Assembly: GCF_963675165.1 (NCBI RefSeq)
Contig: NC_087377.1
Coordinates: 7,457,122 to 7,521,121 of the forward strand
DNA from: Halichondria panicea
Taxonomy: Eukaryota > Porifera > Demospongiae > Suberitida > Halichondriidae
Length of the DNA stretch: 64,000 nt
Direction of reading: 5' to 3'
Made by a program: the position numbers and the translations under genes. Shown piece after piece: positions 1,679-48,310 of this stretch (positions are counted from its first letter, which is position 1; the number at the start of each line of letters is the position of its first letter). The notes beneath the pieces are model-generated. The model did not search any database and was not told the DNA's origin. It saw only the letters and a list, made by a program, of their open reading frames with translations.

Positions 1679-1874
1679 ATAGATGATTACACTAGTTTGA
1701 CATTCCTTCTGCTTGCAATTGCAGGGACATTCACTGTAGCTGTAAAAGGTAAGTTAGCTATGCATGGTCTATAGGCATTATTTTGCTATTCTGCAATTAG
1801 GTCCCAACATCACCTTGTGTTTGTAATGTTACCATAATTATTCAGAGATTGTGGCTGTAATAATAGTACCATAA

Positions 1875-2014
1875 AAACTCGATTTAAAGCGACACATATG
1901 TTTTGCAAAAGTAAAGTTTTAAAGTACACAAAAAATTATATGGTGCTAATAATTATGAGCGAAATGTCCAAGTGTCGCTTATTTAGAGGGTCGCCTTAAA
2001 TCGAGGTTTTACGG
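1875..2014. mobile_element. Short MITE with AAATCGAG-type termini
   Basis: The terminus AACTCGATTTAAAGCGAC is mirrored by GTCGCCTTAAATCGAGGTTT near 1990-2009, giving a roughly 135-base terminal-inverted-repeat element in intron 1 of gene A, directly abutting the next MITE. Confidence 0.6.
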
Positions 2015-2272
2015 TACCGTATAGCGGGAAATTTTCATGGGGTGCAAAAATTTCCCGTTTTTCAAGGCAACTAAGTTAACGCGAAAATATACTGAGAGAC
2101 TCGATCTCCCACGCACCAATATATTTCACATGCAAAGCTCTTGGTGGGTGCATGCATGGGTTTCCTGGATTGAAACGCGAATATTAGAACCCATGAACAT
2201 TAATTTCTGCTGAGGTCTCTAGGGCCAAAATTATAGCGAAAATTTACACCAGCAAAATTTTCCCGCTATACG
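2015..2272. mobile_element. TATAGCGGGAAATTTT-family MITE (copy 1)
   Basis: It begins CCGTATAGCGGGAAATTTT and ends AAAATTTTCCCGCTATA. Internally it carries the shared block with CCCACGCACC, TTTCACATGCAAAGCT and TTTCCTGG. Several copies of the family recur through the array, in intron 1 of A and H and just downstream of most tail exons. Confidence 0.8.
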
Positions 2273-5192
2273 ACAATGGCTCACAATTTGTGGCCAGTGT
2301 ATTATAGATACGTTACAATACCGTCTTTCTTCTAATTACAGTACCTAAGAAGCGCGCCACCAATTGAGCGGCAATGGAATTATATTTTGCTGGGGCTTAT
2401 ATTATGTAATTATTAAAGCGGCCTAAAATCAATAATCTCTACAAATTATAATTCATACATTTGACTCATTATAGCCTTGTTGCACGGCTACTATCACTCT
2501 ACATTCTAACGTCTAATTACACTAGCACCACTCCAATAAGTATAAGTGCCAAACTAGCTATTTGTGTGTGCCATGCACTGTAAAACCACAATTTTGTCGC
2601 TGCAATTAGAAGAAAAACGATAGATCTAGTTAGATCGTATAATATCAAAATAGATCTATTGTGCCTAAATGGACAACTGAAAGTAACACAGAAATTTGTT
2701 TATAATTATCATTTTACACTTAATAAGAAGACTATATTTACCCCTATCTAAGGTAGTGATTATAATGTACAGTATATAGGCACTTTCTGTCTGCCTAATA
2801 CCTTATAGTCTATAGTGTATATATACTGATCACACAGCCCAACAGTTTACAATTGAGCCTGAGTCAGTGGTACGAGCCGAGGGATTATTGGCAGAGTTTG
2901 AGTGCCTGTCTCCTGGAGCACTAGCTCACCCTTGGTTTGTGAATGGCATTGAGTCTACAAGCCCTAACAGTTCATCTGAAATCAGAGTAGCTGGAGGTAT
3001 TTCAGGTCGTCCCTCAGTGCTGACCATCCCAGCCAGTTTACAGTTCAACAACAGTGTCATGCATTCAGTGTCTCGCAGCTTCAGTGAGTAGTGTAGTGTT
3101 CTCAAGGAATGCAACATTGATAGTTGGTGAGTTGTTATAATTATTTGTAGAGAGTACACCTATAGACACGGTTGCCTTAATTTAATGAGGCCTTTTTTCA
3201 GAGCGTGTATCTATTGAAGTGGTGAATAGTGAAACCCACCTTGCTGTCTCTGTGACGAATAACTTCACTCTGAATAATGTTACCTATCGTGTGGACATCT
3301 CGCTTACTGCTCTGGGCACCAATGAGATGGTTGCACTTCCTCCTCTAAATGGGCGAACAAATCAAGCACAGTTTAATTTCGGATACCCTAACCACACTGT
3401 CTGTGATATATTCACCTTCATTGTGACTCCAATTAGTGAGTCAGGAATGAAAGGAAGAGATCCAGTGAACCTGCAGTCCCTGCATGGGTTTTTCCTACGA
3501 GTATAACAGGTACTGCAGTACATTTTGTATATTGATATTTTGCACTCAGCTCTGTGTTCTTCCACGTACAGGTGATAGCATTGCCCCACTCATCAGCCGG
3601 AATGAAGATGTGTTGATGAAAATTGTGACTTTCATTGATGCGGTAACTGGAACTTCACCATTATAGTATTAATGCTCCATTTTGCAGGTGCCTAACTGCC
3701 GCAACTTCACTCATTACCGAATAGACTCAGCTGCTTTGCCAAGTCCCATCACTGAGATCATACAATACCCACTGACTGTGCTGAGTTTCCCTCTTCCCTC
3801 TGACATAATAACCAATGTCACTGTCACACTTACTGCACTGGGGGGTGGAACTGATATTCCAAAACATAGCAATACGTACGCCATAATAATTATTGGAACA
3901 ATAATTATAATGGCTAATTGTGCATGTTTTATCCTTGTAGGAACAACTGATGTTCAAAATTTGACAGTGAACATTTGCCCTGAAGGAAACTGTATTAGTG
4001 TGAGCATTGTGTATGTTGAAGGTATACCCTCTCTCCCGGAGCTCTTGTCTGTGTGATACGTATCACTGATGGAGAGTTGGATTTTGGTAGCATAAAAGTA
4101 ATTACCATACCTCATAGCAGGAGTGACAATTTCACAATATTAGCTGTTCCCAGTGGAAACTGCAGAGTGATTACGAACGCAATTTTCTGCCGAGAATGCC
4201 CATCTCAATAGCAGCTAACAGCAGGGACATATCTGTTATGGTGTCCTCAGGAGATGGAGGTATTTCTGATCATGTGTATATTATAGTGTCACTTGTCCTA
4301 TTTATTTTGTATATAGGACAACCTCCCAGTTGTGAGGGCGTTTCTGTCACAAAGTTGCCAAATGGAGATGCACAAGTGACTTAATTGTGCTGACTCTGAT
4401 GTCGTTTGTCTTGTTTTGTTTCAGTCTACCATCAACAATCTCGACAGAATTTTAGTTGCTCTCATTGACTCATTTGCAAGTTCAACGACCTTCTTTGTCA
4501 GTGACACCTTTGCTAATGGCCATGTGATAGTCTACTCTTGGAATAGCTCACAATCCATCTTCGACGGGAAGGTATCAATCATTAGGCAACTCAATCCACC
4601 AACAAGTATAAGCGTATTTGGTAGCTCATTTTCATACTGTTTACTGTGTTGTGTATATACAGGTGCACCTTCTACTTTGTCTCCTACCGATCCCACACCT
4701 GTTACTGGGTCCCAATTTCCATTGCCCGGAGTAATAGCTGGTAAAGCGAATAGTATTAAATGTGTAGCTAAAATACACCTATATAATTTATAATAGGGAT
4801 AACTGTGGTGGTGATTCTGCTATTGCTTGTAGTCATTGTTGTTGGAGCAGGCATTGTAATTTGTATTATAAAAAAAAGAAAAAAGATGCAGAATGAAGGT
4901 AAATAATGTCAATGCACGTTGCTAGATACAAATACATTGACCTTGATAAGCAGTAACTATTCAAGCTCCCGAGTCAGATGGACAAGTGGATTGGTGCTCA
5001 ACGTTTCCAGGAATTGAGCAGCCCAACGAAGCTTATGCTCCAGTACTCAAAAAGAACATTGCTTATGAGCAAATAAATAAACCACGGAGACAGAGGATTG
5101 ATAATTCACAAGCCCCGGCAACAATAGAGGGAGAGTATGAGAGCATTGAGCCAGTTCATGAGTACGAGGATGTGCTCCCGAAAACTAATTAA

Positions 5193-8409: not shown

Positions 8410-11400
8410 ATGGACAAGAGTTTGACATCTTTCACTTTTCTTTTCATGGCAGGGTCATTCATCATAGCTGTAAAAGGTAAGGCTATTGGCAATACACATT
8501 AATTTCAGAATACTGCTGCATACAAACAGAATAATGTTGCCACAAGAATACTATTCTACATGTAGATCGTATATACTGAGTTTCGAGTGCCTTAGTTATA
8601 GTCAATTGCGAACGACATTGCATGTATAAGCCTGAATACTATTGCAAATTGCACGTGAAGCATACTAATTGTATGCTCCTTGCGAGTCAGATCACTGTTT
8701 CCTTTGCAACTGCTATATATAATTATAATTATACGCAGCCAGAGATTGTGACTCATAATCATAGTCCAACATGTGATGCTCCTCTGCATGAGTACCACCA
8801 CTATTGGCACACTTTTGGATCCATTTTCAGTTAGTTACTGCTAGGAGTACCGTCTTATAGTTTTTGTCAGTGTGTGTGAGAGCCTATACTGAATTATTAT
8901 CTCCCCCACCTCAGAATAATTAAAATACATGTAGATCTGCACATATAAATTGTGTGCTGCCAAATTACTGGTGTGCATTGTACTTTTGAATAAACTACTG
9001 AAACACAGTTTACATGACTGTATTATTTTGTCTAATTTAGACAGTGATATCTAATTGACCTGATTTATAATAATGATTTTATAATTATTCTCGATTAAGG
9101 TAACCTATAACAACGTCTGCGTGCTAATACTTTCTTACAGCTCAGTTCACAATACAGCCAGTGTCAGTAGGGAGAGCCGAGGGACTGGAGGCAGTGTTCA
9201 GGTGCCAGTATCAAGCCGAGGGATTTACTAATAATTATATCTGGGCAATAAACAATGTTGTAGTGGGACAAGATACAGAAACTGTTAGAGCTCGTCGACC
9301 TTCATCCCCTGGTGGACCAACTACACTGACAATATTGGCCACTCCACAGCATAACAACTCTATTGTGTATTGTAGTGCTGTTATCATAAATGGCACTGAT
9401 ATTACTTTAGTAGATTCATCCACAGCATCTCTAGTTGTTCATGGTGAGTCAATATCTTGATTGTTTCAGCATAATTTTCTTTATTAGAGACGGTCCTCAC
9501 TCCGTTTGTTGTTGCACCAAATACCCTCACCGTGACGTGGAATGCTCTACCTCTCACTGAGTACTGTGTGGACATCACCAGGACAACTCTAGACTTCACT
9601 GAAACAGTTGTTATCGATTCTCTGTGTGGACTGACTAATGAGTACATCTTCATGTACTCTAATAACAGTGTGTGTGCTAGATTCACTGTGACTCCTACTG
9701 ATGGAGAGATGAGGGGAACAACCAGTGAATTATGTACCGGGTTATTTACGAGAGTAGAAGGTATGTTTATACTATAATAATAGTATTACACTTCTATAAT
9801 ATTATGCAGGTAGTGGAGAACAACATCGTATTCTTGAAACTAAAAGGAATAAATTAGTCAAATTTAGGGCAACTGTAAGTGATTTGATTTTAGTTGTTCG
9901 TTTCGTTGTTAAGAATGCATTTTAGTTTGTTGAGTTCTCTCATAAAATTCTAGGTTCCAAGTTGTACAAAGTTCACTCAGTATCGTGTGGACTCTGACCT
10001 ATTGACTACCTCCATCAACCTTCCAATCACGGACCCTCTTCTGTTTGATGGCACACTCAGTTTCTTCCTCTCCACTGACAAGATGACAGAATACAGTGTC
10101 ACACTGACTGATGAGAATGGAATAGATCTCGTGTTTGAGAACATTCCAATCAGTGAGTTCAATAGTACGTGTTCATTTGCTAATTATTTGATCCCCAGGT
10201 ACTTTTGACGTTCAAGACCTCCTAGTGTCTGAATGTCCTGGTGGTGGTGGTATTTGTGTGAGCATTGTGTATGTTGAAGGTACCCTCTCTTCCGGAGCTC
10301 TCGTCTGTGCAGTACGTAACATTGATGGAGTGTTTGATTTTGCTAACATGAAACTGGTTTCCATCCCTCGGAATTCTATTGAGAATTTCACCATTCCTGT
10401 TTCTAGTGGAGAATACCGAGTGATTGCTTTTGATCTGGAGAGCAACGATTTACCAAACATGCCCATCTCTATGGTAGCACTCAGTCAAGACATTATGAAA
10501 GTGAACGCTAGTGTTGAAGGTACCTGCTCTGTGTGTTATTGCTGTGCTATAATTATAGTCATTTACCGTAGACATTATCAGTCCACCACCAAGAGAGGGC
10601 ATTAGTGCATCCAATTTAACGAATGGAGATGTTAGTGTGACCTGCTCCAACTCTGCCCTGAATTGTCTAGTCTTGTTTCAATCCACCACCATCTTTGACA
10701 GAGTGATTGTCGGTTTCATTAACTCTTCTGAAGCCTCAACTGTCCTCTCTTTGAATGACACCTTTGGTGATGGCTATGTGATGGTGTACTCTTGGAATAG
10801 TTCACAGTCTATCTTTGAAGGGGAGGTATCGCTCATTATACAACTGGATCTACTCACCAGTAAGTGCCTCTGTAGATTATCATGCAGAGCTAACATCATT
10901 CATTGTTTTCTACACCTCCAACGTCTGATCCACAAACAGACCCACCTCCTCCTGATATTGAGTCCCTGCCAACATCAGTTATCACTGGTAGGTTTTAATG
11001 CTGTAAAGTATTATCATAATGATTCTATCCATTCACTGTCACAGCAGCAGCTATAGCTGGTAAGTCAATACCTACAGAGCACTGAATAATGTGTATGAAA
11101 TAGCATATAATTATTATTATTATGATAAACCATCAGTTTGTGAATATTTACCGTTTACTGGGTTAAGCTTTTAGGTTTAGTGATTCTGCTATTGCTTGTG
11201 GTCACCGCTGTTGGAACTGTCGTTGTGATTTTAAGGAAGCGGAGACAAAATGAAGGTACCTAAATCATTCGTTAACTTGTTTTGAACAATTGACATGCAG
11301 TTGAGGTTCCAGAGTCAGATGGAAGAGTGGATTGGTCATCAACATTTACAGGAATTGAGCAGCCCAACGAAGCTTATGCTCCAGTACTCAAGAGGAACAT

Positions 11401-11563
11401 TGCCTATGAGCAAACAAAGAAACCATGGGGACAGAGGATCGATGACTCACAAGCCCCGGCAACAACAGAGGGAGAGTATGAAAGCATTGAGCCAGTTCAT
11501 GAGTACGAGGATGTGTTGCCTCAGGGAAAAGCAAGTCGTGCAAATTATGTTAACGTTAACTGA
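8410..11563 (+). CDS. Gene B: Ig/FN3 receptor with tyrosine-motif tail
   Basis: Exons are 8410-8476, 9141-9443, 9488-9760, 9810-9874, 9954-10152, 10199-10519, 10572-10859, 10940-10987, 11045-11059, 11175-11255 and 11301-11563. All phases match (total 1923 bases, 640 aa plus stop). Residues 1-22 are a signal peptide (MDKSLTSFTFLFMAGS). Residues 23-123 are an Ig-like domain with cysteines in FRC and VYC and Trp in YIW; 124-214 are FN3-like, with the RFTVTPTDGEMRG strand. Residues 215-505 are beta-rich with NFT, NSS and NDT glycosylation sites, followed by a proline-rich stem, a membrane span at about 527-547 and RKRRQ stop-transfer residues. The tail has YAPV, YEQT, YESI, YEDV and YVNV. Exon 8 lost its ancestral acceptor relative to gene F; I used the ACAAACAG acceptor, which keeps frame. 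Likely a surface receptor signalling through SH2 proteins; its ligand is unknown. Confidence 0.85.
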
Positions 11564-13567: not shown

Positions 13568-16500
13568 ATGGACAAGAGCTTGACATCATTCACTTTCTTT
13601 TGTATGGTAGGTTCATTCATCATAGCTGTAAAAGGTAAGTTAATTTGGCAGTATAACTTATCAATATTTGGCCGTCTCTAAAAATCAGACGCTCACAAAA
13701 CAACCTGCTGCAACTCCAGACTTTTCAACTTTTGTGCATGTGAAGGCCTGCACCCGTCCTACATTCAAAAGACCCAGCTGCAGCAGATATAGCTACTAAA
13801 ATAGTCTAAAGTGTCGGCCGTTTACCTCATTGTCGGACGCAGTCATTTTTTGCTTACAGAGCGATATATACTGGCGTCTGTATAGCACCTACACATAGAG
13901 CCTAGCCTTTCTAATATAGTTTTTTTACAAAGTGATGTTGAACACATGGTAGTCAAGTTCTCAATATTGGGCGCCATTTGTGAAAAAACTACGAAGAGAT
14001 TCAATACGTACCCGCCTTGCCTCTTACGATGCTCAGAAGTGTATAAAACAAAGGAAAAAGGCTACGGCAAAATAGACTCAGGCTGAGTTAGCGTGATTAG
14101 ATTGCATCAGGTTTTTGTATCATAATGTAACAAATCATGCTAACTCAGCAGTTTAGCTTATTTTGCATGCTTTTGCCTTCGTTTTATACACTTCTGAGCA
14201 TCATATAATAGAATGAGGCATGGCTGGTACCCCATACGTCTCTAGCAAAGCTTATAGAAACTTTCACAGCTGTATAGTCGGCAATAGGGCAATAGGTTGA
14301 AAACATTGATTTGTTGAGTATTCAAACCACCGACTTAGCTACTGCTGTGCACGAGTAAAGCGACCGGATTACTACTTCTAATTGTGGTGGCACACTACCT
14401 GATCATTGTCTATTTTTGCATACAATGATACTATTAACTTTTTGTTCCTATCATAGGTAGTGATGTGCATATTCAATTGGCCTTCCCGTCTTCCTAGTAC
14501 TATACATTTATTGTGCATGTACACATTGGATTGACTGTGAGGCGTGGCTAACACCCACTTTAATAAATGATATTCATCGCTATTGGCTAGCACCCACATA
14601 GAATGAAAGATTTCATGATACTATTGCGTAACAGGCCAGAACAAAACTGTGGATAGGCTTGATTCCCGACCTCCTTCAAGGAGGGCGGCGGCGGCGCTCG
14701 ACTACATAGATACATGTACTATACAGTGGAACCTCCATAAAACCATGATAAACGAACACCATTGGGGAACAGCCTTTTGGCCATTATAGAGAGGTGGTCT
14801 TTAATGTTGAGAGGTTTCGATTGCCAACCACATGTATGCTCTGAGTCAATTCCTACTGCAGATGAATCTTGGAGTTTTGCTAACGCTCTTTAGCTCATAC
14901 ACGCTTTAAAAAGGCTGTAGGGACAAGCTACAGCTCGATGGTGTAAAATAATTCCATCTCAGCAATAATATTCTGCTAATTCTGGGTGTGGTTGCCCATT
15001 TTGGGAGATTTATTTTCTATATCTAAAAGCGGATTGGGGACTATAGAAAGCTGCTCGTTATACGGAGTAGAAAGGTGGCCACTTCACAGGCTCTCCTTTT
15101 TCTGTTGTTTACCACAATCGTTCAATAAGTGTATTATATAATCGTTCAATATAAAATACGGTATTAATTGGAGAAATAATTATATAGAGGTAGAGTTAGA
15201 AAAAAGGAGAGCCTGTATCAGGAAGTCACGTATAGAAGGGTGAAAATGAGCGTGGGCATGCAGTGCTAGAGATGTTGGACTGCCTACGTAGAGATCTATA
15301 TATGACTAATAAAACTGTGTCTGCAGCAAGCTAGGCTGGACATGGACTTGGATGGAAGTTTGCAAGCTGTTTATACCGCAAGCTAGCTAGCTATACCCAG
15401 TAGTCTAGATCGTGTGTACGTGTTTATAGATTCATTGTCTTGTGTCTTTGTAATAGCTTAGTCATCATTATCATGTAGCAGGTAGCTACTGTCACGTATA
15501 CCAACGCTGGTTCCCTGACTAGACTCAAAAAATATTTGGTCCCCTGAAATATTCAGTCCCCCCGGACCAAATATTTCATGAAAGCATTTGGTCCGGGGGG
15601 ACCGAATATTTCAGCTATCGCCTGTAATTATTTGGTCCCCCCAGTCCATTGACAGATAGCTATTGCAGTGGTCTGTTCAAAGTTATTATGGACATCTTCA
15701 TGCAGATTAAGCCTATATCTGCATGTCAAGGTAAAATCCCAAAATAAATAGCCTAGCTCAGTATTAACTTGTTGAAACAATTGCATGTTTTGCTGTAAAT
15801 AACAGCACGATATTGACTGAAATAATTTGTCCGGGGGGACGAAATATTTGGTCCCCCTGGACAAAATTCGGGTGGACCAAATCTTTTGTGACAGTACCTT
15901 GGCAGTGTCTCAGTACAGTCTTATTAATTAATTAACTCTGAATGCGTGGGAGAATCTTTCACGATTGTGGTGGGCTACATATCGCCCACGTTCATAAAAA
16001 TCCTTGTGGATCACGTGATTTCCCAAACCAGGCCTTACTTTTTCTTAACTGTACGCCCATTTCTTTCTTCGCTGCCTCATTTTGTCGATTCTTTTTTGCT
16101 ACTTTCTATTTATGGATGAACAATGACAACAGCAAGGCCTGGGAACGAGGCTAGCCGCTCCTGGGAGGTTGCTTTACATTGAAATCATTGTAGTTTCAAT
16201 TCGAACCTGAGCTCTTGGCCATTATATAATAGCGTGTGGTGGAACATTTCTTTTTATTTAGTGCTGGTGTTTAGCACACGAAAATTAAAACTACAAAGTT
16301 ATTCTACTGCACGTCACTATCCTGAGGTGTACGAATATTTAAGCAGTTCATACAAAAATGTGCACCAACGAAAATTACCTGCTATGCAGTACCTATTAAA
16401 ATTATTGATTTATGTGTACACAGCCCAGCAGTTTACAATTGAGCCCGAGTCAGTGGTACAAGCCGAGAGATTGTTGGCAGAGTTTGAGTGTTTGTCTCCT

Positions 16501-18998
16501 GGAGCACTCGCTCACCCTTGGTTTGTGAATGGCATAGCATCTACAAGCCTTACGTCTGAAATCATAGTGGTTGAAGGAAGTGAAGGTCGTCCCTCAGTGC
16601 TGATCATTCCAGCTAGCTCACAGTTCAACAACAGTGTCGTTCAGTGTCTTGCATCCTCAGTGAGTGGTGTAGTCTTCTCAAGAAATGCAACGTTGAAAGT
16701 TGGTGAGTGGTATAATTATTTGTAGAGAGCACACCTTAACACAGTTGCTTTCAATGAGGCCTTTTTTCTCAGAGCGTGTATCTATTGAAGTGCTGAATAG
16801 TGAAACCCACATTACCATCTCTGTGACCAATAACTTCACACTGGATATCCCTACCTACCATGCGGACATCTCTCTCACTACTCTGGGCACTAATGAGATG
16901 GTTGAACTTCCTCCTCTAAATGGGATTCAAAATCAAGTGCAGTTTAATTATCAACAACTTAAGAACCACACTGTCTGTGATATATTCTCCTTCACTGTAA
17001 CTCCAATTACTTGTGAGTTAGGAATGGAAGGAAGATCCAGTGAACCAGTCACTGGATTCTTTACAACAGTAACAGGTCTGTGAATGTTTTATTAAACGTG
17101 TTTTATGCTTAACAACTACCCCAGATAATAACAATGTCGCTCCCCTCATCAGTCAGGGAGGAAATGTGTCGAGGAAAATAGTACATCTTGGTGGCATGGT
17201 AAGAGACGTATTGACTGCATGTAGGACACACTTATTCAACTCACCTCTCAGGTACCCAACTGTACCAACTTCACCTCCTACCAAGTGATCTCTGACATAT
17301 CAGCACCCATTAACAAGACCATCAAAGACCCCCAAATGATAAATTTCTCTCTTCCCACTGACCAGATAATCAACATCTCTGTGATACTTAAATCAATCAC
17401 AGGTGTACGTCTCACATTCAAGGACACGCTAATCAGTAAGTTGTGTTATTCAGTATAATAGTTACAAAACTGATTTTATTTTCCACAGGAACAACTGATG
17501 TTCAAAATTTGATTGTGGACGTTTGCCCTAAAGAAAACTGTGCAAGTATTGAGTATGTTGAAGGTACCCTCTCTCCCGGAGCTCTTGTGTGTGTGATACG
17601 TATCACTGATGGAGAGTTGGATTTTCAAAACACAAGACTAGTGCCAATTCGACGGAATATGAGTGACAATTTTACCATCCCGGTGGCTGTTAGTGGAAAT
17701 TACACCGTGATTGCATTTGACCTTGAGAACAACAATATGAGTGTACCAAGAATGCCCATTTCTATAGTGGCCGACAATGAAACTATGTTTTTGAGCAATG
17801 GTGAGTAGTCGACAAGTGTTAGTCTATAGTCGCCGACGATCAATTTGAGCAATAGTAAGTCGACAATATTTAGTGTCAGTGTTGTATACGTGCATGATAC
17901 CCTAGTGGTTTATTTTCGCTGATTGACTTTGAACCTAGAATAATTGCTTAATTCCGGTATTGTAAGGGGTGTGGTCATTTAAACTTCTATCCTCAAATTA
18001 AAAACTGTAAAATGAAAAATTGAGCGCTATACCGACCGTATTATAGTATAATTATGAGCTTAAATCTAATTATTGTTGTTGGGTTCCCATTTCCTCAGAA
18101 TCTTCCACTGAACCAAATTCTCCACCTAATTCTGAGGACATCACTGTCACTAAACTATCAAATGGAAGTACTGAAGTGACCTGCACTACCACTGGTCAGA
18201 GTTGTCTAGCGTTGTTTCAATCTAAAACCTCTTCAACCTCTCTTGATCCGATGGTGGTTGGTTTTATTGAACCACCTAATGACAGAACCACTGTCACTCT
18301 TAGTACCACTTCCGATGTTTATGTGGTAGTCTACACTTGGAACAGTGATTCTGGTGGGACCATCTTTGATGGGAAGGTATCCTTCATTAGTCAATTGGAG
18401 CTACCAACTAGTAAGCCAGAGTTAGTTTCAGTTTCAGAATTGTGTGCACTCTAGCTGTTGCAGCTCCTCCTCCTACACAATCACCTCCTGATACTACTGG
18501 AACTCCAGTTCCATCGCCCATGATAGTACTAATAGCAGGTGAATGGTGGCAATTTATGGCTGGCTGCATGTGTACATTGTATTTTGTCTGTTATAAAGGT
18601 ATCATAACCGTGGTCGTGGTACTGCTTCTCCTGATAGTCACCGTAGCTATTGTTGTAGTCGTGGTTATTGTGAAGAGAAAACAAAGAGGTGATATCAATT
18701 AGTTTAAAAAAATTTTATGTCACTTCTCAACACAGTTGAGGTTCCAGAGTCAGATGGAATAGTGGATTGGTCATCAACATTTGCAGGAATTGAGCAGCCC
18801 AACGAAGCTTATGCTCCAGTACTGACGAGGAACATTGCTTATGAGCAGACAAAGAAACCACGGGGACAAGGGATCGATGACTCACAAGCCCCGGCAGCAA
18901 CAGAGGGACAGTATGAAAGCATTGAGCCAGTTCATGAATACGAGGATGTGTTGCCTCAGGGAAAAGCAAGTCGTGCAAATTATGTTAACGTTAACTGA
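13568..18998 (+). CDS. Gene C: Ig/FN3 receptor with tyrosine-motif tail
   Basis: Exons are 13568-13634, 16424-16702, 16773-17075, 17125-17198, 17252-17435, 17489-17800, 18099-18410, 18464-18538, 18599-18688 and 18736-18998. Phases are consistent, 652 aa plus stop. The signal peptide (MDKSLTSFTFFCMVGS) is of the B/F type while every later exon is of the A/H type, so the gene looks like a recombinant. The Ig-like domain (about 23-115) has cysteines in FEC and VQC and Trp in HPWF. The FN3-like domain ends SFTVTPI then TGFFTTVT. Further beta exons follow, with NFT and NYT sites, then a stem (PPPTQSPPD), a valine/leucine-rich membrane span at about 537-558, VKRKQR, and the tail with YAPV, YEQT, YESI, YEDV and YVNV. 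Intron 1 is 2.8 kb and full of inserted repeats. A less likely alternative start, at 16385 just before the Ig exon, would encode MQYLLKLLIYVYTAQQ. Confidence 0.8.
14029..14204. mobile_element. Hairpin MITE, GATGCTCAGAAGTGTATAAA termini
   Basis: The left end ATGCTCAGAAGTGTATAAAA is mirrored by TTTTATACACTTCTGAGCAT at the right end. Stems continue inward through AGGCTACGGCAAAAT and ATTTTGCATGCTTTTGCC with mismatches. Confidence 0.75.
15087..15215. mobile_element. Hairpin MITE, CAGGCTCTCCTTTTT termini
   Basis: CAGGCTCTCCTTTTTCT is mirrored by AGAAAAAAGGAGAGCCTG after about 95 bases. It appears to be nested inside the decayed element that starts near 14729. Confidence 0.65.
15487..15896. mobile_element. 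TACTGTCAC-terminated element with repeated TTTGGTCC motifs
   Basis: Termini TACTGTCAC and GTGACAGTA flank repeated subterminal motifs ATTTGGTCC and GGACCAAAT in both orientations, for example near 15535, 15572, 15630 and 15850. Such subterminal motif arrays are typical of transposase-binding sites. No intact ORF for a transposase is present. Confidence 0.6.
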
Positions 18999-19040
18999 CA
19001 GATTTCCACATTTATTTTTATCTCACACATTAATTTGTAT

Positions 19041-22315: not shown

Positions 22316-23253
22316 AACTATTTCTGGACAAATTGTTCATATCAAAAGTTAGACAATTAATTTTATTCAAGCTTACTCTGTGTAATTTTTGGACCTTAGC
22401 CGTAATCTTCTTCAAATCTCTCCCTAACCGTAACGGTACTAAAAACTATGAGTTTTGAGCACTGCGGAGGATGTGTAGATATTAATTTTAAGCAACATCG
22501 AACCATTCATTAGATGTTGTGGAAAGTCCCACACCTTAGCCGGAAACTGCTGGCCTTTTCTCTCCCTAACCGATTACCCACTATAACAATTGTTTACTGT
22601 TTTATTAATCACCACAAACCCTACCACCTTATGTTGTCATGGAAACACTTTTGGATATAATAATTCGATCTAGACAATGCATTTATGGTATCAGCAGATT
22701 TTCTTAGCTATCATAACATAATACTTACATTTAAGTACAACTACTCACACATTTTTGGTATTCTACTCTCTATAGACTGGATCGATGCACTGTAACTGCC
22801 ACATGCACTTAATTTGAACATAGATAAGGAATTAGAGAGGGATTGGAAATGGAAGCGTTCAATCTACGTGAATGCAGTCTACCCTCAATAAACATCCGCG
22901 CCTCGCCTAAATTGTGTCCGCAAAATGCCGGGAAAATACCTCCCTCTTATGTTTTTGAGTTTCCTCAGTATACTATGCATCTCCCTGAGTTTCTACGAAG
23001 CTTTCTTAGTATACTGAAGTGGTGTGTATCAAGTACAAAAAAAACAACAGTAAATTAAGGCTTCCAGCCTAGCTACATTGAATTTTAACGGGAACTACCT
23101 CTTAATGTACTCCCGACAATAATTATTATCATGCTACTTGTTATAATTATCTCCACACTGCGCCCTCGGGGAATACATAGAACTGCCCTTGGTAGTACAA
23201 ATCCAATACACACATATCCATGGTACAACTAGATTACTATTATAAGGAGTCTG
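22316..23253. other. Intergenic D-E
   Basis: Contains GCCGTAATCTTCTTC and CTCTCCCTAACCG motifs twice, near 22400 and 22550, consistent with a small repeat. Near 23090-23253 is the probable promoter of gene E. No receptor exon was recognised. An ORF at 22843-23058 shows no family features. Confidence 0.4.
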
Positions 23254-30631: not shown

Positions 30632-30670
30632 CAAATTTACCCATTTATTTTTATCCCACACATTTCTATA

Positions 30671-31949: not shown

Positions 31950-32614
31950 TAGTAAAAAAGATAGGCTCGTACTCTTGATTAAGTACAGTAACCCATAACG
32001 ACGACTGGTGCTAATATTTTCTCACAGCTCAGTTCACAGTACAGCCAGTGTCAGTAGAGAGAACCGAGTGACTGGAGGCAGTATTCAGGTGTCTGTATCA
32101 AGGGGAGGGATTGACTGTCACTTATGATTGGGCAATGAACAATTCCTTAGTCGGAGCAGATACTGAAACTGTTAGAGCTCGTCGACCTTCATCTCCTGGT
32201 GAACCAGCCACACTGACAATCTTGGACACTTCACAGCACAACAACTCTGTTGTTCAGTGCCGTGCTACAATTAGTAATGGCTTTGATACTGTAAGGCCAG
32301 AAGTATCGATCACAGAAACTCTAACTGTTCGTGGTTAGTCAATAATTATATTGATTGTCTTGGTATAATTTGTTTCTTTTATTACATTAGAGACGGTCCT
32401 CACTCATCTTATTGTTGCACCGAATACCATTACCGTGATGTGGAATGCTCAACCTCTCACTGAGTACTGTGTGGACATCAACACCGGTGTGGGAACTGTC
32501 GTTGTGATTTTAAGAAAACAGAGACAAAATGGAGGTACCTAAATCATTTGTCAACTTTTCATAAACAATTGGCATGCAGTTAAGGTTCCAGAGTCAGATG
32601 GAAGAGTGGATTGA

Positions 32615-32867
32615 TGTAACAGACTAGCCTCTCTAGCCTGTTAGTGAGGGAACTAGTGTTTCAATTGATATGACTTTTTAAGCAACAACAATTCTAGTCC
32701 TACTTTTATACACCAAATAAAAGAAACTTCTGGAATTGTCTTTCCAAGTATACTAAATTCTAGAATCATCCTGCACTACAACCACAAACCACTAAATTAC
32801 TGAACTTTAAACCATAGTAAATTCTAGAAGTATCCACCAGTTCTTGATAATTAATAAGTCCGTTACA
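32615..32867 (-). repeat. 3' LTR of the gene G retrotransposon
   Basis: A 253-base repeat, shorter than its partner by two internal deletions. It is followed inward by a tandem duplication of about 44 bases (TCCTTCAGTGTCAAATAGAG) at 32868-32958 that overlaps the end of pol. Confidence 0.85.
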
Positions 32868-32902
32868 TCCTTCAGTGTCAAATAGAGTTTGACGCAGCAC
32901 GT

Positions 32903-34815
32903 GAAAGGGCGTTACATCCTTCAGTGTCAAATAGAGTTTGACGCAGCACGTGAAAGGGCGTCTGCATTTCCATTTGCGGTTCCAACTCTGTGCAACACTT
33001 CAAATTGGTATGGTTGAAGAGATAGACTCCAGCGGGTGAGTCTTGAATTTTTATCCTTGAGTTTAAACGTTCAGCCACACAAAAGCTCGATGGTCAGTTT
33101 GAATCGTAAACTTCTTGCCTTCAAGATAAACTCGAAATGCTTGTATTCCTTGCTTAATGGCTAAGCACTCTTTCTCAACGGTGGAGTATCTTGGCAAAAG
33201 CTTCTTGCTGTAATATGCGACTGGGTGGTCTATCCCTTGCTCATCAAGTTGACTCAGTACAGCTCCTATTCCTCTGTCGGAAGCATCTGTCTGTAATATG
33301 AATTGTCTTGTAAAATCTGGACTTTTCAAAATTGGTGCAGCACATAAAAATTCCTTGAGGGCATCAAAACTCGATTCGGCATCTTGTGAGCAGTGTACCG
33401 TGTTTGGAGCCACCTTTCTTGTGAGATCTGTCAATGGGGCAGCAATCGTTGCATAGTTAGGTATAAACCGCCTATAATATCCGGTAAGGCCGAGAAATGT
33501 TCTGACTTGTTTCTTTGTGGTTGGTAGCGGAAACTCTTTTATAGCTTTGATCTTTGAATCTTCGGGTCTAACACATCCTTCACCGACAATGTGCCCCAAA
33601 TATTGGCAATTGTTTGTCCCAAATTGACATTTCTTGAGTTTTGCTGTTAATCCACTTTGTCCAAGCCTCTCAAGTACTTTTTCCAAATGAGTTAGGTGCT
33701 CGTCCCACGTCTTGCTGAATATGATCAAGTCATCCAAGTAGGCTGCTGCGAAGCCATCCAGTCCTATGAGTACATTGTCCATCAATCTCTGAAATGTAGC
33801 TGGTGCTCCTTGTAATCCAAACGGCATGACATTGAACTGAAACAGTCCAAATGGTGTGACAAATGCAGTCTTGTGACGGTCTTGCTCGGCTACGGGCACC
33901 TGCCAATATCCACGAGTCAAGTCCAATGTAGAGATAAACTTTGCGTTCCCCAATCTGTCAATTAGTTCGTCTACTCTTGGCATTGGGTATGCATCGGTCC
34001 GTGAACAACTGTTCAATCTTCTGTAATCCACACAGTCTCATGGTGCCGTCTTTCTTTTTAACCAACACAATGGGTGAACTCCACTCGCTGCTTGAATGTG
34101 AGATTAATCCTGCTGTCAGCATCTCATTCAAGTCTGTCTTGACTGTATCACGAAACACATGAGGTATCCTGTATGGTGGCAATCTCATTGGTCTTGCGTC
34201 ACCTGTCGGGATCTTGTGTTCGGCTAGCCTAGTATGGCCTGGTGTATCCTTGAAAAGCTGCTGTAACAGTCGTTTGAGCTGTTTTCCTTGGTTTTCTTCT
34301 AATTGTATCTTCATAGCGTCACTTTCAACTTCCTCGTTTTGTTCCAGTTTCCATTTTCCTCTTCTACTCCTTCCTGTGCAAATCCAACTGTCTGCTCGAA
34401 TACATAGAACTTCTTCAGGAGATTGACATGAAATACTCGCTTTCTCTTCTTCTTGTTATGCATGTCGATGAGGTAGTTAACTTTGCTCGTTTTTTTCACA
34501 ACTGCATATGGCCCTTGCCACTTGGCCAATAACTTTGAGCTGCTCGTCCTCCTTTAAGGTCTCTGTCTTTTGCCTTCTTGTCGTACCACTGTTTCTGCAA
34601 CTTCTCCATATTCTCTTTGACTAGTTCAGCCATAGATTCCAACCTTTCTCGAATGGTTAGCACATAAGAAATAACACTTTCGTCAGTGTTCTGAGAATTT
34701 TCCCAAGCATCCTTTAGAACATCAAGTGGCCCTCGAACTCTACGTCCATAGAGTGTGATCCTGGGTGAAAACTCGTCCTGATCTACATCCAATAGAAGTA
34801 TACCGCTGCCACCAA
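32903..34815 (-). pseudogene. pol: pol remnant: integrase C-terminus then RT-RNase H
   Basis: Reading the minus strand, the order is the integrase C-terminal region (LYGRRVRGPLDVLK near 34750), the GPY/F module (KWQGPYAVV near 34510), the RT start (SSPIVLVKKKDGTMRLC near 34060), the RT catalytic core (YLDDLIIF near 33730) and RNase H. RNase H ends HRVGTANGNADALSR, then a stop near the LTR. At least three frame changes make it inactive. Integrase upstream of RT is not the usual Ty3/gypsy order; it matches the Gmr1-like lineage. Alternatively a rearranged ordinary element could give this order, but the pol ending at RNase H beside the LTR favours the first reading. Confidence 0.75.
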
Positions 34816-34816
34816 G

Positions 34817-35095
34817 TGTAACAGACTAGCCTCTCTAGCCTGTTAGTGAGGGAACTATCGGTGGATCTTTAACAGTGTTTCAATTGATACGACTTTTTAA
34901 GCAACAACAGTACAGATAATTCTAGTCCTACTTTTATACACCAAATAAAAGAAACTTCTGGAATTGTCTTTCCAAGTATACTAAATTCTAGAATCATCCT
35001 GCACTACAACCACAAACCACTAAATTACTGAACTTTAAACCATAGTAAATTCTAGAAGTATCCACCAGTTCTTGATAATTAATAAGTCCGTTACA
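34817..35095 (-). repeat. 5' LTR of the gene G retrotransposon
   Basis: A 279-base repeat with TG...CA ends, followed on the minus strand by CT then the TGGTGGCAGCGG primer-site candidate. Confidence 0.85.
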
Positions 35096-35551
35096 ATAAT
35101 ATTGATCATCAACATTTGCAGGAATTGAGCAGCCCAACGAAGCTTATGCTCCAGTACTCAAGCTCAAGAAGAACATTGCCTATGAACAAACAAAGAAACC
35201 ACGGGGACAGAGGATCGATGGCTCACAAGTCCCGGTAACAACGGAGGGAGAGTATGCGATCATTGAGCCAGTTCATGTGTACGAGGATGTGTTGTCTGAG
35301 AGAAAAGCAAGTCGTGCAAATTATGTTAACATTAACTGAAACTTTCCCACACAGTTGTTTGACGGTATACAATGTATCTACCCATCTTTGTACAAAACTG
35401 AAAATGAAAGTTATAATTGTACACAGGAGTGCATCATAACATGATTCTAGTGTCTTACTATTGTGATCTTTAATTAAAATTTAATACTAAATCTAGAATG
35501 TGATTCATTTTTCTACTACATAGCTAGCTTGGCACACCTATATATGCTTTG

Positions 35552-38500
35552 ATGGATGATTACACTAGTTTGACATTTCTTCTATTTGTGGGGACGTTCA
35601 CCATAGCTGTAAAAGGTACGTAAGTAGCTATGCATGGTCTAGGCATAATTATTTTGCTATTCCTGGTCCAGAAATGCATGGTGATACTCTTGCTATTTTA
35701 TAGGCTATTGCTTTGTTTGTTACTACAATTATCCAGAGATTGGCTGCATGTATAATGTGTTTGACCGTATTATCTAATGGCTTACATTTGTGGTTAGTGT
35801 AGATACTGTATATAGCGGGAAATTTTCGTAGGTGCACAATTTTGCATTTTTTGAGGGCAGAGCAGTTACGCAAAAATTAAAACTGGGATAAATTCCCACG
35901 CACTGGTATTTCACATGCAAAGTTCTTGGTGGGTGCATGTGGTTTCCTGGCATTGAAATGATAATTATTAGAACCCACGAAAATTTCTGCTGAGGGCTCT
36001 GTAGCCAAATAGCAAAAAGGGTGCTAATATTTTCCCGAAAATTTCCCCGCTATAATTATATATACGGTACTGAATGGGGGCTCATATAGTTGTATTTCTC
36101 CACCCACACCACACCACACCACACACCTCACACACACACACACCCACATGTTACACTCACCGCCACTATATATACGGTAATACCGGTACCGTTTTTCTTC
36201 TGATTACAGTGAGAAAGTGCTCCAATTGAGCGGCAAGTAAAGTCTAATGGCGCGCTATTAGAAATAACAATAATAATAGCCTAAAATCAATCAACGCTAT
36301 AATTGATCCATTGCTACTATCATGCACTTTACGTTAATTCTTCCTAATGCTATAAGCGCCTGTTCTATTGGTGATTAGAAGAAAACGATAGTTGTGCAAA
36401 TTTACTGAATGGACGATAAAACATACACAATTAATGTAGAAGAGTATACTATTAATTTGTTGTTCCTATCAAAGGTATATAGTGATGTATATATACATAA
36501 TTATATTCAATTGGCCTTCCTGTCTTCCTAGTACCATACATTTATCATGTACACAGCCCAACAGTTTACAATTGAGCCTGAGTCAGTGGTACAAGCCGAG
36601 GGATTATTGGCAGAGTTTGAGTGCCTGTCTCCTGGAGCACTAACTCATCCTTGGTTTGTGAATGGCATTGAGTCTACAAGCCCTGACTTCTCATCTGAAA
36701 TCAAAGTAGCTGGAGGCACTTCAGGTCTTCCCTCAGTGTTAACTATCCCAGCTAGCTTACAGTTCAACAGCAGTGTCGTTCAGTGTGCAGCCGTTTCAGT
36801 GACTGGTGGAGTCTTATCAAGGAATGCAACGTTGAAAGTTGGTGAGTAGTATAATTACTTGCAGAGTATACATCTTGACACAGTTGCTTTCAATGAGGTT
36901 TTTTCTCTCAGAGCGTGTATCTATTGAAGTGCTGAATGATGAAACCATTACCGTCTCTGTGACCAATAACTTCACAATAAATATCCTCTCCTATCATGTG
37001 GACATCTTTCTCACTACTCTGGGCACCAATGAGATGGTTACACTCCCTCCTCTAAATGGGATTCAAAATCAAACACAGTTTAATTACGGGCAACCTGATA
37101 ACCACACTGTCTGTGATATATTCACCTTCACTGTGACTCCAATTAGCGAGTTAGGAATGGAAGGAAGATCCAGTGAACCAGTAATTTACTTCTTTACAGC
37201 AATTAGAGGTTCTGTGAATGTTTTATTGAACGTTTATGCTTGACAATTACCACAGATAATAACAATGTCACTTCCCTCATCAGTCAGGGAGGAAATGTGT
37301 TGATGAAAATAGTACATCTCAGTGGTATGGTAAGAGACGTATTGACTGTAGTAAGATACATTTATTCAGCACACCTCTATAGGTACCCAACTGTACCAAC
37401 TTCACCTCCTACCAATTGACCTCTGACATATTGGCACCCATCAATAAGACCATCGAAGACCCCCACATGATAAGTTTCTCTCTTCCCACTGACCAGATAA
37501 TCAACATCTCTGTGACACTTACTTCGATCACGGGTGTACGTCTCATATTCAAGGACATGCTAATCAGTAAGTCGTGTTATTCAGTAGTAAGTATTACATG
37601 CTGATTTTAACACAGGAACAACTGATGTTCAAAATTTGATTGTGGACGTTTGCCCTAAAGAAAACTGTGCAAATATTGAGTATGTTGAAGGTACCCTCTC
37701 TCCCGGAGCTCTTCTCTGTGTGATACGTATCATTGATGGAGAGTTGGATTTTCCAAGCACAAGACTAGTGCCAATTCGACGGAATATGAGTGACAATTTT
37801 ACCATCCCGGTGACTGTTAGTGGAAATTACAGTGTGGTTGCATTTGACCTTGAGAACAACAATTTGAGTGTACCAAGAATCCCCATTTCTATAGCGGCCA
37901 ACGATGAAACTATATTTTTGCTCAATAGTAAGTCGGCTATTATTATGTCAGTGTTGTACATATACTTTTTTGTGTGCTGTGCCATATCCTCCCAAAAAAT
38001 TGTACTCGCAGATAATTGGCATTAAAACCGCTTGCGAGTAATTGAAAAATTTAATTTCACAACTTGAGCAAGAATTTAATTTAATTAATTTTTAAGCTAA
38101 ATAGTGAAATCGCAAACAAATCAGGCTACCTGTGAAAATATGTCACCTTAAGGTAATCTCTCACGAGCGGACCTTCTGGATTCCGGACAGCGGACAATCT
38201 TTGTGCAAAACTTCCTCTTATAACGGACAAACAGAAAATTACACATGTATATTTTATGTCCATATGGTATTATGTTATTGCTATAAATCGTACTGCCATA
38301 CTGCAAAGCATGAAAGAATTATGCTTTATATCTTTGATTTTAGCAAGTTTCTTACTTATCGTACTTTTTGAACTAGAATTAGGGTCTAATTATAATTATA
38401 CATGAATACTATCTTGATATGGCAATTTGAATGAACCTTCAAAAAGAGACTAGGACAAACACTCTGCCTCCAAGTGTCCTTTATTCGGAGGTTCCATATA

Positions 38501-39454
38501 GTGCTTTCGCAGGTTGACCTCGAACCTCAAAAATTCTGTCATTTGAATTTCTATCGTCATATAATTATAACAACGCAATTTGTGAACATAATTATTTTTG
38601 CTAGATAGTACTGTGTTAATAAAGTTGTTGGGTTCCCTTTTCCTCAGAATCTTCCACTGAACCAAATTTTCCACCTAATTCTAAGGACATCACTGTCACT
38701 AAACTATCGAATGGGAGTGCTGAAGTAACCTGCACTATCACTGGCCAGAGTTGTCTAGCATTGTTTCAATCTACAAACTCTCCAACCTCTCTTGATCCGA
38801 TGGTGATGATTGGTTTTATTGAACCACCTAATGACAGAACCACTGTCACTCTTGATGCCACTTCCGATATTTATGTGGTAGTGTACACTTGGAACAGTGA
38901 TTCTAGTGAGACCATCTTTGATGGGAAGGTATCCTTCATCAGTAAGCCAAGAGTTAGTTTCAGTTTCAAAATTGTATGCGTTCTGTTCTTCCTCTTGCAG
39001 GTCCTCTCCCTACACGAGTACCTGACAGTACAGAGTTTGGATCTCTGCCCATACTAATAGCAGGTGAATGATGCAATTCACGGCTGTCTGTGTATATTTT
39101 TGTCTTTTAAAAGATATCATCACTGTGGCTGTGGTACTGCTTCTCCTGGTAGTCATTGTAACTATAGTAGCCGTAGTTATTGTGAAGAGAAAACGAAGCC
39201 GTTTTACAGAATCAAATGGGAGAGTGGATTGGTCATCAACATTTGCAGGAATTGAGCAGCCCAACGAAGCTTATGCTCCAGTACTCAAGAGGAACATTGC
39301 CTATGAGCAAACAAAGAAACCATGGGGACAGAGGATCGATGACTCACAAGCCCCGGCAACAACAGAGGGAGAGTATGCCAGCATTGAGCCAGTTCATGTG
39401 TACGAAGATGTGTTGCCTCAGGGAAAAGCAAGTCGTATTAACATTAACTTATAG
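35552..39454 (+). CDS. Gene H: Ig/FN3 receptor with tyrosine-motif tail
   Basis: Exons are 35552-35615, 36557-36841, 36912-37208, 37256-37329, 37383-37566, 37616-37927, 38648-38941, 39001-39063 and 39114-39454. All phases match, 637 aa plus stop. The signal peptide is MDDYTSLTFLLFVGTFTIAV. The Ig-like domain (to about 116) has cysteines in FEC and VQC and Trp in HPWF. The FN3-like domain ends FTFTVTPISELGMEG. The beta-rich exons carry NFT, NYS and NKT sites. The stem is short (PLPTRVPDSTEFGS) and is followed by a membrane span at about 527-548 and VKRKRSR. Uniquely, the membrane and tail exons are one exon here: the intron found in B, C and F is gone together with the VPE segment. The tail keeps YAPV, YEQT, YASI and YEDV, but the C-terminus is SRININL, so the YVNV site is lost. 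Confidence 0.85.
35811..36071. mobile_element. TATAGCGGGAAATTTT-family MITE (copy 6)
   Basis: TATAGCGGGAAATTTTCG to GAAAATTTCCCCGCTATA within intron 1 of gene H, matching the position of copy 1 in gene A. It is followed by a CACAC microsatellite at about 36100-36150. Confidence 0.8.
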
Positions 39455-46023: not shown

Positions 46024-46618
46024 AAGCCCCGTTTACACAAGGCCTTTAATCTTGGTTGGAATCCAGATTAAACCTATCCGCGTTTGTGTAAACAGGCTCC
46101 GGATTAGCCAACCTACCTCTAAAGCAGAGGAGGTACCACACTTTCTTGGCTTCATGTATTGCTCAAGGTCTCTATGGCTAAGTACGTATATTGTTTCTCC
46201 AGCTGAGGTCCTCGTCAATATATTTATGAAGGGTGCAGCTAGTGCTCTCACCTCTTGTAGCAAGCATATCTCGTAACTGAATAGGGGTTCACTGGTGTTC
46301 AGCAAAGGAAACAGTTTGATCTAGGTCTAATCTATATACTACCCTTGACTTTGAAAAGCCTCAGTCACAGAATAATTAACGAGTTATTATGAGGAACACA
46401 CTACATTGAAAACTAAGATTGGAATACAATTAAAAGAGATATCACGAGATGTTGTCGTACCGCTTAGCTGTGAGTAAACACAAAGGGCTAATTCTGAGGT
46501 GTTGTTTATGTTTTTGCGCAAATGCAAGTAGTGGTCGTTTTACAATTTTACTATGCCCACTACTCAGACAAATCAGACCCGGATTTGACCCAGATTAGGC
46601 GTCGTGTAAACAGGGCTT
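46024..46618. mobile_element. TIR element AAGCCCCGTTTACAC with TA flanks
   Basis: AAGCCCCGTTTACAC and GTGTAAACAGGGCTT are inverted termini flanked by TA on each side, in an intron of gene I. A minus-strand ORF (46305-46033) shows no recognisable transposase motif. Confidence 0.65.
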
Positions 46619-47694
46619 TATACTACTACCAGGAGTGCTACTGAATAACATGACTTACTGATTAGCATGTCCTTGAATATGAGGCCCACACCCATGATCG
46701 AAGTAAGTGTCACAGAGATGTTGATTATCTGGTCAGTGGGAAGCAGGAAATTTATCATTTGGGGGTCTTCGATGGTCTTATTGATGGGTACCAATATGTC
46801 AGTGGTAACTTGGTAAGAGGTGAAGTTGGTACAGTTTGGTACCTGAGAGGTGAGCTGAATAAGTGTGTCTTACAGTCAATACGTTTCTTACCATACCACC
46901 GAGATGTACTATTTTCTTCAACACATTACTGATGAGAGGAATGACATTACTACCTGTGGTTTTTTTGTCAAGCATAATTATATAAACACATTAAAGATAA
47001 TATTCACAGTACCTGTTACTTGTGTAAAGAACCCAGTGACTGGTTCACTCTGATTTCCTTCCATTCTTGACTCAGAAGTAATTGGAGTTACAGTGAAGGA
47101 GAATATATCACAGACAGTGTGGTTCTTAAGTTGTTGATAATTAAACTGCACTTGATTTTGAATCCCATTTAGAGGAGGAAGTGCAACCATCTCATTGGTG
47201 ACCAGAGGCACCAGGGAGATGTCCACACGATAGGCGAGGTTATTCATAGTGAAATTATTCATTACGGAGACAGTAATTTTGGTTTCACCATTCAACACCT
47301 CAAGAATTACACGCTCTGAGAAAATAAGCACAGCAACACAAGGTATACTTTCTACAATACACCACTCACCAACTGTCAATATTGCAATCCTTGAGAACAA
47401 CACTGCACCACTCAGTGAAAATGCTGCACACTGAATGACACTGTTGTTGAACTGTGAGCTAGCTGGGATGGTCAGCACTGAGGGACGACCTGAAGTACCT
47501 CCAGCTACTTTGATTTCAGATGAAAAGTCAGGGCTTACAGACGGTGTGCCGTCCACGAACCAAGGATAACCTGATGCTCCAGGAGACAGGCACTCAAACT
47601 TTGCCAATAATCCCTCGGCTTGTATCACTGACTCGGGCTCAATTGTAAACTTTTGGGCTGTATTATTATGACGTACATGGCGGCGGTTTGTCAT

Positions 47695-47988
47695 TAGACT
47701 CGCAAGCCGTCACTGTTGCAGGCGAACAGTAGACTGGTCAAACTCCGTGTTGAGACTCGTGTAACGTTTGCCACGATATTTGTGGCAACTAACCGCATGC
47801 GGTTACCACAAGATCAATGATAGTGACGTTTCACTAGAAAATTCTACGTATCACATGCAGTATACTGACGTCACGAAAACCGCAGCCACTTAAAATATTT
47901 TCTGATATGCTGACTGTGCAACACGAGTCTCAACACGGAGTTTGACCAGTCTACTGTTTGCCTGCAACAGTGACGGCTTGCGAGTCTA
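47695..47988. mobile_element. TAGACTCGCAAGCC MITE in gene I intron 1
   Basis: The terminal inverted repeats are about 68 bases long (TAGACTCGCAAGCCGTCACT and AGTGACGGCTTGCGAGTCTA). GTTTGTCAT is duplicated on both sides (47686-47694, 47989-47997). It shares its tip with the 770-base element in the left arm and sits 37 bases from the Ig exon acceptor. Confidence 0.85.
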
Positions 47989-48310
47989 GTTTGTCATTGC
48001 ATGTAAAATATTTATAGTGACACATGTATGTGTATCATACCTTCAATAACTGTGATTGTAAGAAATAGCCCAACTACAATGCACAAGGCAGTTGTCTGAC
48101 TTGCTATAGCTGCCACCAACTCCATCTACAAGAGCTACAATAAAAATAGTTTGACTCTAACTATGGGTTATAAAATTCATTACTAGCTTGTCGTCTGATA
48201 TCGGCTGTGGTCCTTGTAGATTCACGATCAGCTATAGCGCTAAATGTATAATAGCTAAATTAAGTCTTGCTATTCATAAAAATTAATAGTTAGCGTAGTC
48301 TACTTTCTTA

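Follow-up and report, generated by a model that had tools for sequence, protein, structure and literature searches.

A large cluster of immunoglobulin-domain membrane receptors with an apparently homogenized signaling tail in the sponge Halichondria panicea

The DNA considered here is a 64,000-nucleotide stretch of the genome of the sponge Halichondria panicea (G000:C1:7457122-7521121; the assembly comprises 131 Mb in 39 contigs), which we call the window; C1 is the contig on which it lies. An earlier note on this DNA had claimed that the window carries eight copies, four of them intact, of a gene for a membrane receptor with immunoglobulin (Ig) and FN3 domains, all built on one exon plan. Eight receptor copies are indeed present between window positions 1679 and 48125, and these are labeled A, B, C, D, F, G, H and I, with E denoting a separate gene. 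Every exon of copies B, C, F and H is open, whereas A, D, G and I are broken. The copies share a plan of 9-10 exons that appear in the same order: a signal peptide, an Ig exon, a putative degenerate FN3-like exon, exons 4 through 7, a stalk, a membrane span and a tail. The signal peptides and the spans were judged by eye, not predicted. A repeat search of the window returned identical blocks, with their order kept, on both strands. These repeats are not due to chance because they are so long, so alike and in exon order.

Copy H (35552..39454, + strand) is open over 9 exons and encodes 637 amino acids. It was assembled by hand with AG/GT borders and consistent phases, and its exons were then used to locate the remaining copies. 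Its exons specify the signal peptide (35552-35615), the Ig domain (36557-36841) and the FN3-like region (36912-37208), followed by 37256-37329, 37383-37566, 37616-37927, 38648-38941 and 39001-39063, and by a single exon for the membrane span and tail (39114-39454). Copy B (8410..11563, +), a member of ectodomain lineage 1 with a long tyrosine tail, is open over 10 exons (8410-8476, 9141-9443, 9488-9760, 9810-9874, 9954-10152, 10199-10519, 10572-10859, 10940-10987, 11175-11255 and 11301-11563) and passed GT-AG and phase checks. Copy C (13568..18998, +), also open over 10 exons, is a mosaic that was analyzed for the exon-wise ratio of nonsynonymous to synonymous divergence (dN/dS) and for tract ends. 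Both B and C were modeled with frame and splice checks. Copy F (26749..30631, +) has 10 open exons and an ectodomain of lineage 1. For H, B and C, the exons were also translated as one joined reading, and F is open exon by exon.

The broken copies carry diverse lesions. Copy A (1679..5192, +), which was traced by its exon matches and analyzed for lesions and tail, has ATA at the position of the H start codon and frameshifts in exons 2, 3, 5, 6 and 7 (reference locus L045), with a tail that is still open. In copy D (20643..22316, +), which has many indels and a degenerate tail, a deletion fuses exon 1 to the end of exon 3 and has removed the Ig exon together with the greater part of exon 3. Copy G (32030..35339, +) has an in-frame stop in its Ig exon and a long terminal repeat (LTR) element between exon 3 and the tail; its exons 4-9a were not found. 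Copy I (48125-44167, − strand) is short-tailed and broken by a 7-nt net deletion in exon 7 near 44816. This copy has its own signal exon (48125-48041), an Ig exon (47657-47370), exon 3 (47315-47013), exons 4-6 extending to 45677, and a membrane-span exon (44318-44167).

The window is the middle of a far larger cluster that spans about 0.8 Mb and holds dozens of receptors. A search with the H protein yielded at least 119 exon matches (69 of 351 candidates scored), of which 114 lie on C1 at 6.91-7.69 Mb and 5 on contig C2 near 1.56 Mb. A tail query gave 73 matches, including 48 tail exons at C1:6.910-7.746 Mb (0.84 Mb), 32 of which are open and near full length. Of the rest, 18 fall at C1:3.44-3.70 Mb, two are on C2 and one is at C1:8.72 Mb; the last four were set aside as second fragments of neighboring rows. 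The tails at 7.014-7.244 Mb all lie on the − strand (20 of 20), and 22 of 23 at 7.257-7.746 Mb lie on the + strand, the sole exception in this + arm being a fragment at 7.2775 Mb. The strands switch near 7.25 Mb, as if the complex were made of two opposed arms.

The group at C1:3.44-3.70 Mb constitutes a second, more diverged cluster. It shares with the first the order of tail motifs and the presence of Ig and FN3 exons. However, its tail proteins are only 53-62% identical in 16 of the 18 matches (two fragments reach 73%), and the two genes read, both at locus L055, encode an Ig-FN3-Ig-FN3 ectodomain followed by a membrane span and tail, with the second gene frameshifted in its last FN3 exon. 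The same locus includes a candidate collagen gene (L055 6510-7352), which by its motif we take to be a short-chain, spongin-like collagen, although two pieces of it that were tried gave no Pfam match. Such a gene, the small genome and the short introns are in keeping with a sponge; a silicatein motif had 0 matches in the genome, although an intron or an inexact motif would have concealed one. The wider family must be larger still, because an Ig-FN3 query also matches C1 at 6.34, 7.78-7.94, 10.76 and 11.07 Mb, contig C8 at 4.49-4.53 Mb, and contig C5.

Exon 2 encodes an Ig domain, and the proteins belong to the Ig superfamily. The Pfam model Ig_3 matches 7 of 17 Ig exons tested (14 from the window's cluster and three from the second cluster) at E<=0.1, with a best value of 5.2e-5, where the bit scores shown fall below the curated cut-off (23.7 versus 30). 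When a family profile of the Ig exon was compared with the Protein Data Bank (PDB), a titin chain ranked first (3.1e-5). An AlphaFold model of exons 2-3 of copy I has a predicted local distance difference test score (pLDDT) of 73-88 at residues 21-80, which form the Ig part, and an overall mean of 48.2. Foldseek searches with this model listed 50 matches that are mostly antibody chains, seven of them at E<=0.001, with query TM scores of 0.25-0.34.

The FN3 component of the original proposal fared less well, since it stands for exon 3 only and only indirectly. A genome-wide fn3 search (150 of 808 candidates scored) listed nothing in the window's cluster, Pfam fn3 matches none of 16 exon 3 members, and PDB profiles likewise returned nothing, such that direct assignment failed. 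Exon 3 nevertheless appears to be a degenerate FN3-like exon, an assignment made solely through the second-cluster family as an intermediate. An Ig-FN3 query from the second cluster matches copy F over exons 2-3 (39% identity, 2.7e-9), and a profile comparison of exon 3 with the second-cluster FN3 exons gives 4.9e-6. The latter exons have weak fn3 matches of their own (0.02-0.08), with DUF4945 scoring better in one of three (0.0022), and all six PDB sequences that they match at E<=1 bear FN3 domains (best 0.0047).

The tail behaves differently from the ectodomain. A common tail was found at E<=0.001 in six of the eight copies (A, B, C, F, G and H), and the exceptions are the degenerate D and the short, different I. 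The earlier view that ectodomains diverge while a common tail is kept is therefore sound for six copies, but not for D, nor for I and other short-tailed loci. Synonymous differences in the tail number 5/52 (B-H), 7/53 (F-H), 5/57 (B-C) and 5/57 (C-F), whereas those in the ectodomain, pooled over exons 3, 5, 6 and 7, number 129/236, 138/236, 134/243 and 139/242 for the same pairs. Fisher tests of this contrast give values from 5.6e-10 (B-H) to 3.5e-12 over the four pairs. In 15-row trees, the branch lengths from B to H sum to about 0.45 in exon 6 versus about 0.06 in the tail, and the tail tree is shallow, with no branch that parts B and F from the H type. The DNA that is similar between B and H covers 11307-11570, and the tail exon of B covers 11301-11563. 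Gene conversion is the best explanation because the tail is too similar for its age and because similar tracts end near exon borders. The simplest reading would be conversion limited to the exon that still retains homology, and the shared tail thus looks homogenized, not only constrained.

The alternative is that purifying selection at the nucleotide level, for example for a regulatory or RNA function, has kept the tail in the absence of gene conversion. The way in which the similar tract hugs the exon borders in B-H and F-H would fit such constraint. However, synonymous divergence falls several-fold in one exon only, the likeness in B-C (to 11755) and C-F continues past the stop codon, and the tails of the second cluster have diverged, which indicates that the tail exon is free to change when isolated. 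We consider this alternative unlikely, and gene conversion of the tail exon remains the favored reading.

What the tail might do is suggested by its tyrosines, of which there are three in a tail from the second cluster, four in H, and five each in B and C, mostly in YxxPhi contexts. A relaxed immunoreceptor tyrosine-based activation motif (ITAM; V allowed, spacing 5-12) fits three of these four tails. Phosphotyrosine readers exist in this genome, because it yields 71 matches to SH2 (some partial), whereas 14 control genomes yield none. One of the SH2 matches, at C1:6893767, falls slightly beyond the low-coordinate edge of the receptor cluster.

Copy I and several other loci are predicted to be short-tailed, with no tyrosine block. 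The last exon of copy I encodes the membrane span and such a tail, and its DNA has eight genomic matches, one being the window itself and two apparently being pieces of locus L040. Locus L046 has a similar short tail by translation. In loci L046, L056 and L057, basic residues come directly after the membrane span. Short- and long-tailed members have similar ectodomains, as in exon 2 of I and H (77%).

Between copies D and F resides gene E (23254..25009, +), which differs from the receptors in that it encodes a small-ectodomain, single-pass membrane protein whose multi-tyrosine tail includes YENI, YENL and YSKL. In the window, the gene is disrupted both by a frameshift and by a repeat that has inserted into the tail exon at about 24084-24511. 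This insert is short and has terminal inverted repeats. An open relative at C1:6989382 (L052) is 95% identical over 148 tail residues. Its product begins with a signal peptide and ends in a long tail that bears YDDI, YAII, YENI, YENL and YSKL, and between them lie a short ectodomain rich in Ser/Thr and a membrane span (exons 1-2 were assigned by eye). Counting the window's own, five of six genome matches to gene E lie inside the receptor cluster. The shape of the protein brings to mind, on our assumption, LAT-type transmembrane adaptors; no Pfam match of the LAT-type adaptor kind was found. The over-similar tail, the short-tailed copies and this adaptor-like gene inside the cluster are all additions to what had been noticed before.

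Birth-and-death evolution of the family, as the earlier note held, is well supported by the mix of genes and pseudogenes, repeated deletions, duplicated 5′ flanks, and recent multi-gene duplications that are 97-100% alike over their main pieces. Around exon 1, B and F have 1.9 kb in common at 78%, and C and D share about 0.8 kb of upstream sequence at 80%. Copy C is a mosaic in which exon 1 and the tail are near B and exons 2-7 are near H. On a larger scale, a module with the order E match, two tails, H and I recurs near 7.35, 7.49 and 7.68 Mb. The H copies of the three modules are 97.6-98.7% alike over their main pieces, and the window's I is 97.5-99.4% alike to the I copies of the other two modules, which are mutually 99.7-100% alike.

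Such similarity raises the concern that the multiplicity is largely an assembly artifact, in which uncollapsed haplotypes have been placed in tandem. Two modules 322.6 kb apart share one stretch of 3,339 bp that is 100% identical and another of 3,663 bp that is 99.7% identical, and this particular pair may be an assembly duplicate. However, insertions and a divergence of 1.3-2.4% separate the H copies, identity to a single query ranges over 66-99% among the 48 tails, and the more diverged lineages cannot be haplotypes. As a general explanation, artifact is quite improbable. The locus is real, and larger and more structured than had been seen; diversification coupled to a homogenized output is well supported.

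From these data, we consider it reasonably likely that the locus is a multigene complex of type I membrane recognition receptors, shaped by birth-and-death evolution, that retain a homogenized signaling tail and serve ligand-driven recognition. Conversion restricted to the tail exon, and perhaps acting on signal exon 1 as well, would preserve one signaling output while ectodomains diversify. Because conversion would keep a common tail, the long-tailed receptors presumably all plug into one pathway. Engagement of a ligand by the Ig/FN3 ectodomain would lead to phosphorylation of tail tyrosines, with candidates in NEAYAPV, NIAYEQT, EYESI, HEYEDV and NYVNV, and the phosphorylated forms would recruit SH2 proteins. 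The short-tailed copies, which share the ectodomain, could be decoys, competitors, or subunits that need a partner, for which the linked gene E is a candidate.

Several observations weigh against this interpretation. The exon borders outside H came from the search or were set by eye, and only the phases of H were admitted, so the phases common to the copies are partly a matter of construction and not independent evidence; stop-free exons in order, unlike phases in the non-H copies, are independent evidence. The exon 3 donor sites are poor in H (GTTCTG) and C (GTCTGT). The structure prediction that had been proposed as a check recovered the Ig fold but not FN3, as exon 3 is modeled below pLDDT 50 and the model of exons 6-7 is all-beta with a mean of 51.9 and no Foldseek match at E<=0.001. 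Exons 4-7 have no significant match and no assigned fold. Attempts to assign exons 6 and 7 from PDB profiles or from fold gave chance-level or low-confidence matches and were abandoned, and profile comparison revealed no homology between exons 6 and 7 or exons 3 and 7.

Other observations of this kind concern the tail and selection. The tail data do not reject the ectodomain grouping (approximately unbiased test, p-AU 0.19); this attempt having failed, the evidence for homogenization is the depth of the tree and not its topology. Codon-level constraint on the tail exon could also contribute. In none of the pairs tested for exons 2 and 6 is the proportion of nonsynonymous differences (pN) significantly above that of synonymous differences (pS), with best p values of 0.15 and 0.12. 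None of the four tails tested (B, C, H and one of the second cluster) has a strict ITAM (Yxx[LI]x6-12Yxx[LI]) or immunoreceptor tyrosine-based inhibitory motif (ITIM; [SIVLT]xYxx[ILV]), and the ITIM/ITAM-like tails expected by analogy with Hydractinia Alr proteins were thus not borne out in strict form. Finally, no charged residue was seen by eye in the membrane spans of L046, L056, L057 and copy I, and a DAP12-like partner is accordingly not indicated because these short-tail spans are uncharged.

The most likely role, by comparison with known systems, would be recognition of conspecific cells (allorecognition) or of microbes, and it is from this analogy that we infer a function in allorecognition or immunity. 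Vertebrate paired immunoreceptors of the KIR, LILR and PIR type are likewise linked and carry long or short tails on similar ectodomains, and they too undergo gene conversion and birth-and-death evolution. In vertebrate-type pairs, the short-tailed partner carries a charged membrane-span residue. The sponge family differs in lacking a strict ITIM in the long tails tested and span charge in the short-tailed members read, and in having an FN3-like second domain. An innate immune array of paired long- and short-tailed receptors directed against microbes or symbionts is a possibility, though not a probable one. The long- and short-tailed members with similar ectodomains and the pattern of gene conversion speak for it, whereas the missing span charge and strict ITIMs speak against it. 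It would also agree with pN/pS in the H-type group, which is 0.70 in the Ig exon versus 0.37 in the tail, although exon 5 is also low (0.39); exons 3, 4, 6 and 7 are at 0.56, 0.56, 0.67 and 0.47, respectively. Local windows of the Ig exon, 5 of 15 of which exceed 1, suggest positive selection there, although no pair tested reaches significance.

The allorecognition complex (ARC) of Hydractinia is reported to have at least 41 Alr loci, with many pseudogenes, in several discrete clusters (PMC11067881, PMC11999971). The sponge locus is similarly a cluster of many single-pass Ig genes (with spans judged by eye) plus pseudogenes, and this portion of the parallel drawn in the earlier note stands. 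The differences here are the FN3-like exon and the exons without an assigned fold after the Ig exon, the one homogenized tail exon, the short-tailed members and the linked adaptor-like gene. The locus resembles the ARC in its layout and possibly also in its logic. A complex dedicated to allorecognition, whose polymorphic receptors would decide conspecific fusion or rejection in convergence with the Hydractinia ARC, is somewhat less plausible than an immune array. Clustered Ig receptors with many pseudogenes in few discrete clusters, as described for the ARC (PMC11067881), clusters on one contig (3.44-3.70 and 6.91-7.75 Mb), and high gene turnover are all consistent with such a role, but a large array of receptors with conserved output suits pathogen recognition equally well. 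Among sponges, an Ig-domain receptor tyrosine kinase is named from Geodia (PMC12018476); it shares the Ig ectodomain and single-pass form, whereas Pfam returned no kinase match for the last exon of H. In a grafting transcriptome of Amphimedon, neither cell adhesion nor aggregation-factor-mediated adhesion is reported to be significantly enriched (PMC5450542). No description of a cluster such as this one in sponges came up in the open-license literature, which is not proof of absence.

Adhesion in another sense must also be weighed, namely a developmental family for cell sorting or Dscam-like identity that has no immune or allorecognition role. Adhesion molecules typically combine Ig and FN3 domains, and FN3 chains, sDscam for one, are among the weak all-beta matches obtained for exons 6-7 (at low confidence, with none at E<=0.001). 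To our knowledge, developmental adhesion genes do not usually show pseudogenes, recent duplications and a turnover this high, and we regard this alternative as unlikely. A receptor complex for ligand-driven recognition remains the reading that we prefer.

The window also includes mobile and repeated DNA. The LTR element inside G (32690..35095, −) has two identical 178-nt repeats (32690-32867 and 34918-35095), and on the − strand it carries a frame that Pfam identifies as reverse transcriptase/RNase H (33063-34037), with a second one reaching 34455. Because the repeats are identical, the insertion is suggested to be recent. Inverted repeats surround copy I, with arms at 40424-43430 and 48308-51626 that are 95-100% alike in several pieces and carry an interspersed repeat of ~380 bp with at least 38 further genomic copies. 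Perfect 1,028-nt inverted repeats (49278-50305 and 53891-54918), 3.6 kb apart, are perhaps transposon ends. A 402-residue open frame at 55412-56620 (−) has no Pfam match and is presumably the C-terminal part of a non-LTR element.

For the receptors behind the precise graft rejection of sponges, this locus would provide a named, mappable candidate. The locus also offers a case of modular evolution in which diversified sensors are joined to one homogenized output exon, with short-tailed members linked to them, and it allows one to ask whether the logic of inhibitory or decoy receptors evolved repeatedly. It is a doubtful but attractive prospect that these ~50 Ig receptors in 0.84 Mb, with conversion of one exon and with linked decoys and an adaptor, form an allorecognition complex separate in origin from those of Hydractinia and Botryllus. 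If true, then receptor, antagonist and signal transducer would have been duplicated together.

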